This document shows positions 42,922 to 50,045 of a DNA stretch of 64,000 nt, one piece after another. The stretch's first letter is position 1. Every line of letters starts with the position of its first letter. This DNA is from Wenjunlia vitaminophila DSM 41686 (GTDB lineage Bacteria > Actinomycetota > Actinomycetes > Streptomycetales > Streptomycetaceae), in contig NZ_KB904635.1 in NCBI RefSeq assembly GCF_000380165.1, positions 124,001 to 188,000 on the forward strand, read 5' to 3'. Under the pieces are notes generated by a model. That model ran no database searches and was not told where the DNA came from. It saw only the letters and a list, made by a program, of their open reading frames with translations. Made by a program: the position numbers and the translations under genes.

Positions 42922-42954
42922 CTGTCAGTCTCCTGCCGTGCAGGAGACTGACAG
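42922..42954. repeat. 33-bp perfect palindrome between the YyaL-like and repeat-peptide genes
   Basis: CTGTCAGTCTCCTGC is followed by CGT and then its exact complement GCAGGAGACTGACAG. It lies 9 nt upstream of the YyaL-like start and about 100 nt upstream of the peptide start. A terminator is unlikely between divergent genes, so an operator or a 5' leader hairpin is the better reading. Confidence 0.85.
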
Positions 42955-43051: not shown

Positions 43052-43261
43052 ATGTCCACCAAGCTCGTCAAGCGTGTGGCTGTCACCTTCGCTGCTGCCA
43101 TCGCCGTGGGCGCCGGACTCTCCACTGCCGCCCAGGCCGCGACCACACCCACCTCGCCCAACGGCAACGGCTGGGACAGCGTCGTCGCCGCCAACGGCTG
43201 GGACAGCATGAACGGCAACGGCTGGGACAGCCTCAGCACCAACGGCAACGGCTGGGACTGA
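43052..43261 (+). CDS. Secreted peptide with four NGWD repeats (putative modified-peptide precursor)
   Basis: The 69-residue product has a Sec-type signal peptide (basic STKLVKR, hydrophobic AVTFAAAIAVGAG, predicted cut after AQA at residue 29). A 40-residue mature part is built of repeats: NGNGWDS at 37-43, NGWDS at 48-52, NGNGWDS at 54-60, and NGNGWD at 64-69, which ends the protein. The Trp residues lie at 41, 50, 58 and 68. The DNA of the units is nearly identical (GGCAACGGCTGGGACAGC), so they arose by recent duplication. AGGAGG lies 8 nt before the ATG. No cysteine is present. The next gene rightwards is an HxD...H dioxygenase, which suggests a modified peptide; a plain secreted structural peptide is the alternative. 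I know no family for it. Confidence 0.75.
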   Translation: MSTKLVKRVAVTFAAAIAVGAGLSTAAQAATTPTSPNGNGWDSVVAANGWDSMNGNGWDSLSTNGNGWD

Positions 43262-43678
43262 CTCCTCACCCCTCATCCGCGCAGGTCACCGGGCGGCGTG
43301 CAGGCATGGCGTGTGCGCCGCACCTTTGACGTGCCTCTTGACACGGCGCCGCGGACGACAGCCTCCACCCTGTCGGCGCCGGGCAGATCCGAGTCCCGAT
43401 CGACACCCCACCGAGCAGCTTCCCCGCGCTCAGCGTCAGCGCTCCGCCGCTTCCCCCGCATGTGCTGCGGGCACTGACGCAACGCCCGCTCGAGATCCTC
43501 CGTAGCGGAGGTTCCTACGACCCGACACCCAACGTGGCCGTGGCCGGCGGAAAGAGTGCAGGGGGCCGCAGGGCAACCGTGTGTGTCACGGCAGGACCCT
43601 GCGCCCAGGAGCGGGGCCGGCGTGCCACCCGCCGGCCCCGCTCCTGCCATTTGCTCAAGCGAAGGAGAGTCCCCCTCC
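43262..43678. other. Gap between repeat peptide and dioxygenase genes
   Basis: No gene with convincing codon bias was found in these 417 bases on either strand. The stretch contains CTTGACACGG near 43337, which could be a -35 element, and a strong hairpin at 43606-43646. An unannotated small RNA or very short gene ending at that hairpin is possible. Confidence 0.45.
43606..43646. terminator. Strong hairpin directly upstream of the dioxygenase ribosome-binding site
   Basis: CAGGAGCGGGGCCGGCG pairs perfectly over 17 bp with CGCCGGCCCCGCTCCTG around a 7-nt loop, followed by CCATTTGC. It ends about 15 nt before the AAGGAGAG of the dioxygenase gene. It could be a terminator, an attenuator or a protective 5' hairpin. 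Confidence 0.75.
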
Positions 43679-44749
43679 ATGCTGACCGAGCCGCACTTCT
43701 TCCCGGGCGAGGCGCCGCCCGGCTACTCGTACCTGGAAGACGAGCCCGAGTTCGACCCGCGGACCGACCTTCAGCTCGAGCCTCCACAGGAGCTGACCAA
43801 CCTGCGTGACCTGGGGTACGACACGGGGTTCGAGATCGACTTCCCCTCCCCCCTCGCGGTCACCTCAGCGCTGCGGGTGCTGTCCGACACCGGGGTGGAG
43901 AAGACCCGCAAGGTCATCAAACGGCTGTTGCCACACGCGGTGCACAGCCCCGACCCCCGCGTCGCCCCGGTGCTGCACGGCGCGGTGTACCGTTCCCGCT
44001 TCCTGCGCGACCTGTCGCTCTCCCCCGAGGTGGCGGCGTTCTTCAGTGAGATCGCCGGGACCGACCTGGTGCCCACGGCCCTGCCGTTCAACCTGGCGCA
44101 GATCAACTACGTCCACCCCCAACCGGAGCAGGCCATCGAGGGCTGGCACCACGACGACACCGGCCTGTCCATGCTGCTCGTGGTCCACGACCCCAGCCAC
44201 CTGGACGGGGGCCGCTTCCAGTACTTCCACGGCACCCGGCAGGAGGCGGCCGGGTACGCCCGCAACCGCCTGTGCCTGCCCGCCGACCGGGTGGTCTCCC
44301 CGGTGCTGCCGGGTCCCGGGTACGCGGTGCTGATGCAGGGCTCCGCCCTGGTCCACCGGGACGAGCCGCTGTGGACACCGGGCGAGCGGTACACCCTGGG
44401 TTCCTGCTACGACAGCCCGGACCCGGAGCACACCGCCCCCAACCGCACCTACTTCCCCGACGAGACCGACACCGACCACCTCTTCGACCCGGAGACGCAG
44501 GTGGAGAGGCTGTGCCGGTACGTGGACTTCGCCAGGCACAAGGCGTGGCGGGCGCGCGGGAGGCTGGACGCGTTCCTGCGCGAGGTGCCCTGGACCGACG
44601 ACCGGGAGCTGATCGTCCGACAGCTCACCGAGGCGGTCAGGGAGGTCGTCGAGGCGGTCAACCTGCTGCGCGGCGACGAGACCGGAACGGCGCAGGTCAC
44701 TCAGCTCCGGGCACCCGAGGAGAGCCGGGGGAAGCGAAGGATGGCCTGA
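43679..44749 (+). CDS. 2-oxoglutarate/Fe(II)-dependent dioxygenase-like protein
   Basis: The 356-residue soluble protein carries the facial-triad pattern of non-heme iron dioxygenases. GWHHDDTGLSM holds H157-x-D159 (or H158-x-D160), SALVHRDEP holds the distal His 226, and GERYTLGSCY has Arg 237 for 2-oxoglutarate. The carboxylate at the Asp position argues for hydroxylation rather than halogenation. The N-terminal 110 residues and the helical tail after 290 have no family I can name. There is no signal peptide, so it acts in the cytosol. AAGGAGAG lies about 10 nt before the ATG. It follows the NGWD peptide gene on the same strand after 417 bp; the peptide as substrate is inference. Other substrates, such as a free amino acid, remain possible. 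Confidence 0.75.
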   Translation: MLTEPHFFPGEAPPGYSYLEDEPEFDPRTDLQLEPPQELTNLRDLGYDTGFEIDFPSPLAVTSALRVLSDTGVEKTRKVIKRLLPHAVHSPDPRVAPVLHGAVYRSRFLRDLSLSPEVAAFFSEIAGTDLVPTALPFNLAQINYVHPQPEQAIEGWHHDDTGLSMLLVVHDPSHLDGGRFQYFHGTRQEAAGYARNRLCLPADRVVSPVLPGPGYAVLMQGSALVHRDEPLWTPGERYTLGSCYDSPDPEHTAPNRTYFPDETDTDHLFDPETQVERLCRYVDFARHKAWRARGRLDAFLREVPWTDDRELIVRQLTEAVREVVEAVNLLRGDETGTAQVTQLRAPEESRGKRRMA

Positions 44750-44815: not shown

Positions 44816-45820
44816 TTAGTCGAGGTCGATCCACCCCTTGGAGGCAGCGAGCGCACCCGCCTGGAAGCGACTGCGCGCACCGAGGCGTTCCATCAGGGCC
44901 GCGGCAACCCGGCGCATGGTCCGCACGGACACGCCCAGCTTCCGGGCGACCAGCTCATCCGTCAGCCCCTGGGCCAACAGGCGCAGCATCTCCCGTTCCT
45001 GGCTGCTCGGCTCCTCCGCGGTGCCCTTGGCCCGGTGCCGGCGCTGGTCGCCGAGCGGTACCGCGTTCATCCACACGTGCTCGAAGAGCGCCGTGAGCGC
45101 GGTGATCATGCCGGGCCCGTGGATCAGCACGCCCCCGGCCCGGCTGTCGTCCATGTCGATCGGCACGATGCCGAGCTTCCGGTCGTAGACGATCATGCGC
45201 ATGGGCAGTGCCGGGACGGTGCGGATCTCGCCGCCGAGCTCGGTCAACCAGCGGACGTAACTCAACGTCCGGGGGTCGTTGCGCACGCTGTCCAGGTAGA
45301 CGTAACGGAGCCGCACACCACGCTGGAGCATGTGCTCGTCGTGCGGGCTGCTGGCGTCCAGGCTGTCCTGCGACTGACCGCCACCGGGTTGGAAGTTGAG
45401 CACCTCGCTGCCCACCGTGGGCGCGAGCTCGCCGATCCGCTCGCGGACCGCCGCCACCCCGATGAGCTGCTCCACCTCGGCGTACTGCCAGCCGGGCCTG
45501 AGCTTGGTGTACTCCGCCATCAGCGCCGCCGCCGCGGCCCGCGCCTCCTCGATGCGGTTGCGCTGGGCCACCAACTCCGCTTCCTGACGGGCGAGCACGG
45601 CTTCGAGCCCGGCCTCCGGGCTCACCGCCCGCCACTGGTCCGGGGTGGTCAGCGAGGGGCGCAGCAACGCGGCCCGTGCCAGCTCGTCGAAGGCCGAGCG
45701 CACGTCCTCGGGTGTGATCGACAGGCGCCCTGCGAGGTCGGACACGCCGAGACTCGGGTCGGAGAGCATCACGCGGTACACCGCCTCCGCCCGGTCGCTT
45801 ATCCCGAACACGTGCAGCAC
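44816..45820 (-). CDS. TrmB/LuxR-type transcriptional regulator
   Basis: The 334-residue product begins with a TrmB-like winged helix (GISDRAEAVYRVMLSDPSLG, LAGRLSITPEDVRSAFDELARA), followed by a coiled-coil of about 30 residues. A central phospholipase-D-like/effector domain (YLDSVRNDPRTLSYVRWL, MRMIVYDRKLGIVPID) comes next. It ends with a LuxR helix-turn-helix (EMLRLLAQGLTDELVARKLGVSVRTMRR). Such double-HTH regulators are abundant in streptomycetes, often beside natural-product genes. It converges on the dioxygenase gene and is divergent from the small-protein gene at 45948. Confidence 0.88.
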   Translation of the reverse strand: MLHVFGISDRAEAVYRVMLSDPSLGVSDLAGRLSITPEDVRSAFDELARAALLRPSLTTPDQWRAVSPEAGLEAVLARQEAELVAQRNRIEEARAAAAALMAEYTKLRPGWQYAEVEQLIGVAAVRERIGELAPTVGSEVLNFQPGGGQSQDSLDASSPHDEHMLQRGVRLRYVYLDSVRNDPRTLSYVRWLTELGGEIRTVPALPMRMIVYDRKLGIVPIDMDDSRAGGVLIHGPGMITALTALFEHVWMNAVPLGDQRRHRAKGTAEEPSSQEREMLRLLAQGLTDELVARKLGVSVRTMRRVAAALMERLGARSRFQAGALAASKGWIDLD

Positions 45821-45947: not shown

Positions 45948-46241
45948 ATGTACGCCTTTACCGCCCGATTCCACTCATACGATGGAGCGGAGGCGGCTCC
46001 GGACATCGCCCATCATGTGCAGTCAACCGCGGCTCCACACAATGGTCTTGAGCATATCTACACGGAAGCAACCCCTTTCGGGGTCTATGCGGTTCTGTTC
46101 ATGCATGCGAACGGCGCCGAGGCCGCGGAGGACGCGGCCGTCGAGGTCTGCCGGGGGGCCTTGCAGCGGGCGGAGTTGAGGGGATGGAACTTCACCTGGC
46201 AGGGACCGGAACGGGCACTCAACGCCGGCGCGTCCTGGTGA
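45948..46241 (+). CDS. Small protein divergent from the LuxR-type regulator
   Basis: I do not recognise this 97-residue protein. It has no signal or membrane segment and reads as an alpha/beta ferredoxin-like domain (MYAFTARFHSYDGAEAA, GVYAVLFMHANGAEAAEDAAVEV, GWNFTWQGPERAL). The ATG at 45948 is preferred because GGGAG lies 9 nt upstream; the ATG at 45939 is too close to it. The shared 127-bp gap with the regulator suggests regulator and target. The STAND gene begins about 100 bp later. Confidence 0.65.
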   Translation: MYAFTARFHSYDGAEAAPDIAHHVQSTAAPHNGLEHIYTEATPFGVYAVLFMHANGAEAAEDAAVEVCRGALQRAELRGWNFTWQGPERALNAGASW

Positions 46242-46343
46242 GTGGGTAGCCCGTCCCCCGCGTCGCGCGGCGGCGGCACCGACCGCGTCCAGCGGGCGCG
46301 GGCCGCACCGGACGCGAGCTGCCCAGGACACGGAGGAGGCCAG

Positions 46344-49300
46344 ATGTCCGGGCGGCGGCAGGGTGGTGAGCACCCGGGTCCCGAGAACCAGTGGCGCGAC
46401 ACCGGGACGGACCAGGGCACAACGAATGGCGCGGCGGACGGGACGCGCCCCGTGGCGTTGACCGATCATGCTGCGAAGCAGCAGGTCAGCGGCGAGGAGG
46501 CCGCCCGGGGGGCCGCGGTGGGCGGCGTCCCGCGAGAGGGGCCCGACGGGGGCCGGGGGACCGAACGGGGCGGTGGCGCTCCGTTCGCCCGGCCCGAGGA
46601 CCTCCACGCGTTCCGACGACTGGTGGAGCGGGCCACCAACGACCCCGCCGCGCGCCGGCACGCCCACGCCGCCGCGGAGAGGGTCGCCACGGGGACCCGC
46701 GCCGAGTACGCCGCCTATCTGCGCTCGGTGGCCGAGGGGCGTGCGCTCGGGCGGTTCCCGGCCAGGACCGCGAGCGTGGCCGGGGCCGGTTTCGGCGCCG
46801 TGGGGCTGACCGTGGAGCTGGCGTCCGGGGCCGGTCCTGCGATGGCGGTCGGCATGGGGGCGCTGGTGTCGGTGGCCGCCGTCGGCGGCGCGTTGCTGCA
46901 CCAGCCGCGCCACGTCCGCCGCGCTGCGGCGGAGCGCACGGCGCGGGAGCGGCGACGGATCTGGCTCGCCGCGATGGAGCGCACCCTCAAGGAGCAGTTC
47001 AGCGAGGGTCAAGCGCTGTTCGAGACCCCGCCGCATGCTGAGACGCCGGACACCACCGCCGGCCAGGACCACTCCGGCCCCTCGGCCGCGCCCCACGACA
47101 CCGCCGACCCCGAGGCGTTGCCCGAGGCCGGGGCCGCGTCACGGCTCCACAGCCCACCGGCGCGCGGGGGTGACCCCCGGGTGGGGCCCCACGCCACCGT
47201 GACCGGTGGACGTCCGTCGAGCACCGGAGGACCCGAGCCAGCATCCGAACACCCGAACGGCATGTCGCCTTCGGGTGACGTCGCTCCCGAGGGCGGTGCG
47301 GCCCACGGGACAGGCACCCCCGAGGAGGTGCCCGGCGGTCCCTCCGGGGAAGGGGCGCCCGACGCCCCTCCGGCGTCGTCCCGCCGGTTGCCCCTCCCCC
47401 GCCGTGACCGCACCCCCACCTCGGCCTCCCTCCACCTCCCCGTCCGCCGGGGCCCGTTCCTCGGCCGGGACTCCGCCCTCGCACGCGTCAGCGGCTGGGC
47501 CCGGCCGGACGGTGCCCCCGGAGGACTGCCGTCACCGTGCGTCGTGGTGCTGCACGGCCCTCCCGGTGCCGGCCGGACCGCTCTCGCGGTGGCCGCCGCG
47601 GAGCTGCTGGGCGAGCGGTACCACAGCCGCTGCCTGGTCAGCCTGCGGGGCGGGGGCGCCGAAGCGGGGGACGACGCCGCTGCTCCGCTGTCCACCCGCG
47701 ACGCGCTGCTACGGCTGCTGAACCAGCTCGGGGCGCCCAAGCAGGACCTGCTCTTCCGCGATCCCGCCTCCCGGGACACCCATGTGCGGCGGCTCCGTCA
47801 GCAGTACCAGGAGCACCTGACCCACCAGCCCGCGGTACTGATCCTCGACGACGCGGCGGACGCGGCCCAGGTACGGCCGCTGGTCCCGGTCCGCTCCCCG
47901 AGCCTGGTGCTGATCACCAGCCGGGAGCCACTCGACCTCGGTGACCAGTTCACCACCCACCGACTGGCCGTGGGCGCCCTCACGGACGCCGAGGCCGAGG
48001 AGCTGTTCGCCGCCGTCGCGGGTCGGGAGCCGGGTTCGGCCGGGGACCGGGCGCTGCTGCGGGCCGCACAGGGCCTGCCGCTCGCACTGTGCATGGCGGG
48101 TGCCGCGGTGGCCCGGGGAGCAGGAGCCGGTGACCCGTTCGGGGGCCCCGAGGACCCGCAGGCCGTGCTGCGGTACGGCTACCTCACTCTGGAGCCGGTC
48201 GCCCAGCAGCTCTTCCGCCGGTTGGCCCTGATCGGCTCGGGCACCCTCGGAGCGGCCGCGGCCGCCGCGCTGCTCGACCCGGACGATTCCCCGGCCGCGG
48301 GCGGCAAGGCCACGCAGCGGGCGGCGGCCACCCACCTGGACGCGCTGTGTCGGGCCCGGATGGTGGAGGAGGTGTCGGGCGGCCGGTTCCGGCTGCCCGA
48401 CATGCTCCGTGCCTTCGCCCTTCGGCAACTGGCCGAGGAGGACTCCGCGCAGCAGCGCTCCGCCGCCCAGGAACGGCTGGTCAGGGACTACGCGGAACTG
48501 GCGGAGCGGGTCATCCACCGGGTGGAGGGCGCGTCGTCCGCCCGCACGGTGCGCTCGATGCTGCGTTCCGCCCCGGGCGCCTCGCGGGTGCCCTTCCGGC
48601 GGGGCGACGAGGGGCTGCCCGCGGCGTTGAACTGGCTCGACGAGGAGAGCGGTCTGATCACCGCCGCGTTGCGGCAGGCCGACGACGTGGACCCGGCAGC
48701 GGTGCAACGGCTGGTCGAGGCGCTGTGCGACTACTGCCTGCTGCGCGGGGACCTGTACCGGTTGGGGGAGATCGCCGAGCTGGCCCGGGGGCTGGGTGAG
48801 CCGGTGGTCCGCTCGGTGCGGCTGCGCACCGGGATCGCCGCCCGGCAGCTCGGGCAGCTCGACCGGGCGAGGACCACGCTCAGCTCCCTGGTGAGCGTGT
48901 ACCGGGAGGGGCACAACGAGGCAGGAGCCGCCCGGGCGCTGTGCAGCCTCGGCATCACCCTGCACCACCGGGGCAACCTCCCGGAGGCCACCGCCAAGCT
49001 GCGTGAGGCCCTGGAGCTCCAGCAGCCGGAGGACCAGCGCGGCGACCGGGCCTGGACCCTGCACGCGCTGGGAGCGGTGTTGCGCGACCGGGGGGAGCTG
49101 GACGAGGCGTGGCGGCTGCTGCACGAGGCGCAGCGGCTGCACGAGGAGACGGAGAGCCTGCACGGGCAGGCGTGGACCTGCCTGCAACTCGGCCAGGTGC
49201 ACCTGCGGATCGGCGAGGTGGCCGAGGCGGAGGAGCAGCTCTGGCTGAGCCAGGAGCTGTACCGCATGACCCGGGACGCCCGCGGCGAGGCGTGGGCGCT

Positions 49301-50045
49301 GACCCAGCTCGGCCGGGCCCGGCTGCTGCGCGGTGAGGCCGAGCGGGCGGTGCTCGAGCTGAACGGGGCCAGGACGCGGCACAGGGAACAGGAGGACGCC
49401 CGTGGCGAGGCGTGGACCCTCTACTACCTGGGGCAGGCGCTCGAGGACGCGGGGCGGCTCGACCGCGCGGAGGACGCGCTGAGTCGGGCCCGGCACATGT
49501 TCAGCACGATGGGCGACCGGTACGGGCACGCCTGTGCCCGGCACCACTTCGGGCGGGTCACCAGGGACCGTCTCGCCGGACGGTCGGGGTCGTTGCGGAA
49601 CACCGGCTTCGCCCGCCAGTTGCTGCACGAGGCCCGGCAGGACTTCCGGGCAGTGGGACTGCCCCACGGTGAGGCGTGGTCGTGCGTGGAGCTCGCGGTG
49701 GTCGACGCGGGGTGCGGCCGGATCTCCCGGGCGGTGGACGTGCTCCAGGACGCCCGCGAGCTCTTCGACGGGCTGCGGGACGGCAGGGGTGCCTCCTGGG
49801 CGACGTTCCTGCTCTGCACGCTGGCCCCGCTGACGTCGGACGACGGGCTGCGCACGGCCCACGAGACGCTGGCGGGACTACTCGAGGCCCCCGGCTGTCA
49901 CCCGACGGTGCGGGAGCACGCCCGCCGCTGGATGGACGGGCCCTGGCTGGAGACCCACGGTGACGGGCCCTGGCCGGTGTGGCGCCTGGGCCTGACCCCC
50001 TCCCGCGGCGCGCGCGACGTCATGGGCACGCCGATCAGGGGGTGA
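46344..50045 (+). CDS. Membrane-associated STAND (NB-ARC-like) NTPase with TPR repeats
   Basis: The 1233-residue product has a disordered N-terminus, a helical segment and then two adjacent hydrophobic stretches at about 145-190 (VAGAGFGAVGLTVELASG and AMAVGMGALVSVAAVGGALL). A Pro/Gly-rich linker of about 180 residues leads to an NB-ARC-type NTPase. Its Walker A is HGPPGAGRTALAV near 403-415, with Arg in place of the usual Lys; Walker B is AVLILDDAAD near 495. A winged-helix region follows, and about eight TPRs (RGDRAWTLHALGAVLRDRGEL, RGEAWALTQLGRARLLRGE and others) run from about 830 to 1180. It resembles the C-terminal part of AfsR-like regulators without the SARP DNA-binding domain. GGAGGAGG precedes the ATG. 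The effector and signal are unknown. Confidence 0.85.
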   Translation: MSGRRQGGEHPGPENQWRDTGTDQGTTNGAADGTRPVALTDHAAKQQVSGEEAARGAAVGGVPREGPDGGRGTERGGGAPFARPEDLHAFRRLVERATNDPAARRHAHAAAERVATGTRAEYAAYLRSVAEGRALGRFPARTASVAGAGFGAVGLTVELASGAGPAMAVGMGALVSVAAVGGALLHQPRHVRRAAAERTARERRRIWLAAMERTLKEQFSEGQALFETPPHAETPDTTAGQDHSGPSAAPHDTADPEALPEAGAASRLHSPPARGGDPRVGPHATVTGGRPSSTGGPEPASEHPNGMSPSGDVAPEGGAAHGTGTPEEVPGGPSGEGAPDAPPASSRRLPLPRRDRTPTSASLHLPVRRGPFLGRDSALARVSGWARPDGAPGGLPSPCVVVLHGPPGAGRTALAVAAAELLGERYHSRCLVSLRGGGAEAGDDAAAPLSTRDALLRLLNQLGAPKQDLLFRDPASRDTHVRRLRQQYQEHLTHQPAVLILDDAADAAQVRPLVPVRSPSLVLITSREPLDLGDQFTTHRLAVGALTDAEAEELFAAVAGREPGSAGDRALLRAAQGLPLALCMAGAAVARGAGAGDPFGGPEDPQAVLRYGYLTLEPVAQQLFRRLALIGSGTLGAAAAAALLDPDDSPAAGGKATQRAAATHLDALCRARMVEEVSGGRFRLPDMLRAFALRQLAEEDSAQQRSAAQERLVRDYAELAERVIHRVEGASSARTVRSMLRSAPGASRVPFRRGDEGLPAALNWLDEESGLITAALRQADDVDPAAVQRLVEALCDYCLLRGDLYRLGEIAELARGLGEPVVRSVRLRTGIAARQLGQLDRARTTLSSLVSVYREGHNEAGAARALCSLGITLHHRGNLPEATAKLREALELQQPEDQRGDRAWTLHALGAVLRDRGELDEAWRLLHEAQRLHEETESLHGQAWTCLQLGQVHLRIGEVAEAEEQLWLSQELYRMTRDARGEAWALTQLGRARLLRGEAERAVLELNGARTRHREQEDARGEAWTLYYLGQALEDAGRLDRAEDALSRARHMFSTMGDRYGHACARHHFGRVTRDRLAGRSGSLRNTGFARQLLHEARQDFRAVGLPHGEAWSCVELAVVDAGCGRISRAVDVLQDARELFDGLRDGRGASWATFLLCTLAPLTSDDGLRTAHETLAGLLEAPGCHPTVREHARRWMDGPWLETHGDGPWPVWRLGLTPSRGARDVMGTPIRG

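Follow-up and report, generated by a model that had tools for sequence, protein, structure and literature searches.

The short secreted peptide encoded at 43052-43261 on the forward strand of the window (the whole 64,000-nt stretch of Wenjunlia vitaminophila DNA analysed here) has as its conserved partner a TrmB/LuxR-type regulator, together with a protein of about 100 residues, and not the dioxygenase encoded next to it. Because the peptide belongs to a widespread family of Streptomyces and related bacteria, with tryptophan-containing terminal motifs found beside one type of regulator, we regard it as a probable signal between cells and not as a substrate of the adjoining oxygenase. The explanation that we favour, with moderate confidence, is that the gene specifies a multi-copy precursor of an exported peptide signal, for which the TrmB/LuxR protein would be both the cognate intracellular receptor and the transcription factor.

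The initial annotation described a 69-residue precursor with a Sec signal and four near-identical units, the last one at the C-terminus, and both points stand. The translated product, MSTKLVKRVAVTFAAAIAVGAGLSTAAQA followed by ATTPTSPNGNGWDSVVAANGWDSMNGNGWDSLSTNGNGWD and the stop codon, starts at an ATG with an AGGAGG ribosome-binding site on its 5' side, and a homologue with a diverged motif is encoded at the same place in the sister species (G008, see below). The predicted Sec signal covers residues 1-29 (43052-43138, + strand), with a cleavage point, set by eye, that is likely to follow AQA; it leaves a mature part of 40 residues, and the presence of such a leader suggests export. The units, recognizable both in the translation and as DNA repeats of the + strand, are NGNGWD (43160-43177), NGWD (43193-43204), NGNGWD (43211-43228) and NGNGWD (43241-43258), the fourth abutting the stop codon. 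That the repeats are identical at the DNA level, as was also claimed, is true for the cores only: the 14-mer AACGGCTGGGACAG is present in exactly three copies in the 6.4-Mb genome, all within the peptide gene, whereas over the whole 25 nt of the repeat the identity to the reference copy ranges from 72 to 100%.

The regulator gene (P0003) is found 1.6 kb from the peptide gene, at 44816-45820; it had been placed on the same strand as the peptide and enzyme genes, which proved incorrect, since it lies on the opposite strand and is convergent with the enzyme gene. G008, the single other genome of the genus in our sample, has the same gene order as the window: a DUF255-type gene, the peptide, an extra 204-aa gene, the HalD-like enzyme (67% identical to that of the window) and the regulator (78%). 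Its peptide keeps the MSTK... type of leader and terminates with ATGWQKTDDVSISQSAAPDTGWQ just before the stop codon, with two Trp units, one of them C-terminal. The extra gene (L041, 8259-8873) is sugar-isomerase-like, with a weak Pfam match below the cut-off. In the window this gene has decayed: alignment with the intact G008 copy indicates that much of the ORF is gone and that its 3' end is left as a remnant at about 43380-43580 (+ strand, approximate limits). Two other elements of the neighbourhood can be mentioned. One is a perfect 14-bp inverted repeat, CTGTCAGTCTCCTG-CCGTG-CAGGAGACTGACAG, located at 42922-42954, upstream of the peptide gene and with the DUF255-type gene on its other side; this candidate operator is a single site in the genome and is kept in G008 with one change. 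The other is a gene for a 1267-aa STAND/NB-ARC and TPR protein (46242-50045), directly after the gene of the 100-residue protein; a large ORF is found at the matching position in G008.

In the structure model of the regulator a TrmB-type winged helix, a coiled coil and a PLD-like domain can be recognized besides a DNA-binding domain of the LuxR type, and among known structures the model comes closest to TrmBL2 and TrmB. The winged helix and the PLD-like ligand domain are shared with these archaeal proteins, but the fused C-terminal LuxR-type DNA-binding domain sets the present regulator apart. The known ligands of TrmB are sugars and, to our knowledge, the TrmB/LuxR fold has not been recognized as a receptor for peptide signals; the role of peptide receptor is proposed here from the sequence and domain matches, the structure model and the loci of the relatives. 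Such relatives (E-value of 1e-50 or better) were detected in 185 of 298 genomes of the family, a single genome containing as many as seven. The named plasmid matches were almost all from Streptomyces, which makes Streptomycetaceae the probable family of these genomes, and no relative was found on viral contigs.

A similarity search with the peptide itself returned weak chance matches only. With a divergent leader and so short a motif, this type of search fails, and the regulator was therefore taken as the anchor. In the flanks of the closest regulators (44-53% identical) short Sec-type ORFs with Trp-motif ends were found. The terminal motifs seen were DNMIWG, GDMGWQ, ANTIWD, TTAWE, DNLIWGS, TTGWD and IIGWD; DMGWQ and the IIGWDS...IIGWD arrangement, for example, are of the same kind as the motif of the window, and GGCCGGAAC represents one type of regulator/peptide pair in Streptomyces. 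Candidate peptides were then defined as ORFs of 25 to 110 aa with a positive N-terminus, a hydrophobic core (as judged by a home-made signal-peptide filter) and a Trp among the last three residues. An ORF of this kind was present near the regulator in 43 of 58 loci, whereas control DNA from these loci, in which the same filter gave 11 matches, mostly implausible, in 486 kb, leads one to expect about 4. Because half of the loci had already been inspected when the criteria were set, it is the size of the excess that counts and the exact P value is not to be relied on. One of the 43 matches (L107) looks spurious and two more loci possess a peptide missed by the filter; at roughly one regulator locus in four no peptide was detected. 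The peptide gene is usually on the 5' side of the regulator gene, divergent and 300-900 bp away. Unlike most loci, the window has it on the 3' side, with other genes in between; it has the Sec-type leader, NGNGWD at the stop codon, an adjacent regulator of the P0003 subfamily and the 100-residue protein. The earlier proposal of a secreted multi-copy precursor forming one system with its neighbours is, to that extent, supported. The more distant TrmB/LuxR paralogues of the window genome and of G008 (27-34% identical) have no peptide beside them, and no clear peptide was seen near a 52% identical paralogue in G008.

Repetition of the terminal motif within the precursor is not peculiar to the window: it was observed in 13 of 48 precursors, with ANTIWD and IIGWD in three copies and DMGWQ and TTAWE in two. 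In another actinomycete family, where the regulators are 33-36% identical, precursors contain four copies of DGNTWPG or of GNTWG, the last GNTWG unit being at the stop codon as in the peptide of the window. These precursors with four NTWG or NTWPG units beside more distant TrmB/LuxR regulators are those of loci L147, L150, L153 and L156. Some peptides are carried by Streptomyces plasmids, where the NCBI annotation designates them as hypothetical proteins; on pCLA1 of S. clavuligerus, the record of which is almost without annotation, the filter yields a precursor with two DLPWT units. Some of the plasmid pairs adjoin biosynthetic genes (NRPS-type genes, ketosynthases). When the residue following the Trp was mapped on the regulator tree, 12 changes were counted versus 25.6 after shuffling (none of 200 shuffles was as low), which indicates that the type of peptide travels with the type of regulator, this clustering being due in part to close relatives or near-copies.

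The second conserved element is the MYLxH protein of about 100 residues (45948-46241, + strand, in the window). Of 66 loci, 46 encode it divergently from the regulator, that of the window among them. It has no match in Pfam and one sub-threshold match in NCBIfam, and a ferredoxin-like fold is predicted by its structure model. Its gene, hitherto undescribed, is thus a usual component of the conserved locus.

In many loci, the sequence GGCCGGAACSGTCC, a candidate operator, precedes both the regulator gene (by about 90-120 bp) and the peptide gene (by 160-200 bp). With at most one mismatch, it was found upstream of 18 of 58 regulators and 9 of 42 peptides, for 0.006 expected per stretch; as it was derived from the same, related sequences, this enrichment is indicative, and more weight attaches to its occurrence at the two promoters of a single locus. 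It is absent from the promoters of the window. Since it is missing from several other peptide-bearing loci too, we did not treat it as defining the family. A further site, the short inverted repeat GCGTCACCGCGGGACGC, was noted with no more than three mismatches 5' of 16 of 42 peptide genes (L060, L073, L066 and L061 among others) and of none of the regulators.

How the system might operate can be outlined. The precursor would be exported through the Sec pathway and cut into short peptides ending in the Trp motif (about NGNGWD in the present case), which would be re-imported, presumably by an oligopeptide permease. Once inside, the peptide would alter binding of the regulator at the regulator/MYLxH promoters and at the peptide promoter, thus providing autoregulation. 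The gene of the HalD-type hydroxylase, in the peptide operon, and the sugar-isomerase-like gene of the sister species would be lineage-specific output genes. What the sequences themselves show is the Sec-type precursor, its repeats, the pairing with the regulator, the agreement of peptide type with the regulator tree and the candidate operator common to relatives; we infer the processing, the re-import, the recognition of the peptide by its regulator and the regulatory link to the HalD gene.

The pairing and the shared candidate operator demand only that the regulator control the peptide gene. The peptide could then be a secreted effector (antimicrobial, surface-active or acting on the cell wall) and the regulator could sense something else, a possibility with which secretion fits as well. 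However, more of the mature chain would be expected to be conserved in an effector, whereas conservation is limited to about five C-terminal residues, which vary from locus to locus, occur in tandem and track the regulator type. We therefore see an effector function as a minority possibility, though one to be kept in mind.

The initial annotation had paired the peptide with the enzyme encoded downstream on the same strand (P0002; 43679-44749). Its description as a protein with a dioxygenase pattern is confirmed: the ORF, the best start of which is the ATG at 43679 following GAAGGAG, contains the HxD, His and Arg residues and matches the HalD family of Pfam (PF23169) with 35.3 bits (cut-off of 26; E-value of 1e-8), a score above the gathering threshold that relates it to the BesD/HalD Fe(II)/2OG halogenases and hydroxylases. 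Work on BesD, a characterized member of the family, has associated a carboxylate iron ligand with hydroxylases and its replacement by Gly with halogenases, and has identified free lysine as the substrate of BesD (PMC13244439). Every full-length homologue that we aligned conserves WHxD and VHR, so that the enzyme is of the hydroxylase type; a halogenase (HxG, with Gly in place of the Asp ligand) was considered and rejected, P0002 differing from the BesD/HalD halogenases by the retained Asp.

This iron site, and the fact that the two genes are same-strand neighbours in each of the two species of the genus, are what would be expected if the enzyme hydroxylated the Asp, Asn or Trp of the repeat units to give a modified peptide. 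The distribution of the enzyme argues against it. Relatives of P0002 were found in only two of 150 genomes of the family (both of this genus), plus a doubtful one at 26% identity, and in two of 395 genomes of the class, the window being counted in both cases; HalD-type genes are thus nearly absent from the genomes where such terminal-motif peptides abound (more than 40 loci). The other homologues, 37-41% identical, come from Komagataeibacter, Thioalkalivibrio and two metagenome-assembled proteobacteria, and no Trp-motif peptide was found beside these proteobacterial genes. The search for repeat peptides next to dioxygenase homologues, as had been suggested, therefore returned the pairing in this genus only, and homologues devoid of a repeat peptide, the very observation named beforehand as contradicting the proposal, do exist. 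Co-inheritance of peptide and oxygenase was rejected on these grounds, and the enzyme is not the defining partner it was taken for. No maturation enzyme was strongly recurrent among 117 neighbouring proteins (ThcOx accounts for 3), and a HalD gene beside the peptide in one genus does not make the repeated pairing of a precursor with its maturation enzyme that characterizes RiPPs. In addition, an enzyme located in the cytosol could reach the precursor only ahead of Sec export. Given that BesD acts on free lysine, P0002 is, by analogy, more likely to act on a free amino acid than on a Sec precursor. In Komagataeibacter europaeus (L037), the HalD-like hydroxylase gene adjoins, as judged by eye, genes for an apparent MFS transporter, a TonB-type receptor and an aromatic amino-acid lyase, a neighbourhood that suggests an amino-acid-derived product. 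With the enzyme almost absent from actinomycetes, with homologues that lack the peptide and with adjacency in two sister species as the one positive indication, modification of the peptide appears unlikely, although it is possible within this one genus.

Could the receptor be the large STAND/TPR protein instead of the TrmB/LuxR regulator? TPR domains bind the peptide pheromones of the RRNPP family, and the gene follows that of the MYLxH protein in the window, with the large ORF of G008 at the equivalent position. The pairing is defined by the TrmB/LuxR gene, however, and NB-ARC or AAA_16 domains were seen in only about 3-5 of the 117 neighbouring proteins elsewhere, so that we consider this quite improbable. 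That a short secreted repeat protein lies beside unrelated genes by chance, as its unusual side of the regulator and the intervening genes could suggest, is hardly credible in view of its conservation in the sister species, of the recurrence of this pairing at dozens of loci elsewhere and of the agreement between peptide type and regulator tree.

The TrmB/LuxR regulator as receptor brings to mind the RRNPP systems (PapR/PlcR, Phr/Rap, AimP/AimR), where a Sec-exported precursor, matured into a C-terminal product, is encoded next to a cytosolic DNA-binding partner. The layout of precursor and partner is alike, as is the diversification of motif-receptor pairs, and the likeness is one of principle: the partner is not a TPR receptor of the Rap/Rgg/NprR/PlcR/PrgX type but a TrmB/LuxR protein with a PLD-like sensor domain, the motif is present two to four times in many precursors, and the hosts are actinomycetes. 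The signals known from Streptomyces are mainly gamma-butyrolactones. A short peptide imported by BldK, reported as 655 Da, is presumed to be a signal there (PMC9640686). The candidate 5-6-mers that might be released from the present precursors have computed masses of about 550-735 Da and would likewise be short extracellular peptides in the same bacterial family.

No description of the peptide family was found in a literature search by motif, by regulator type and by Streptomyces peptide signalling, preprints and most subscription journals being outside its scope. It is an evenly balanced question for us whether streptomycetes and their actinomycete relatives possess in these loci an extensive, as yet undescribed family of multi-copy pheromones, with dedicated TrmB/LuxR receptors and more than one independent pair in a genome, from which the long-suspected imported signals of Streptomyces might come. 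If so, they would offer peptide signals that can be tested as synthetic molecules of 5-6 residues together with their receptors, the regulator being present in about 60% of the sampled genomes of the family; and, where the pairs sit beside biosynthetic genes on plasmids, the peptides might serve as switches for silent clusters.
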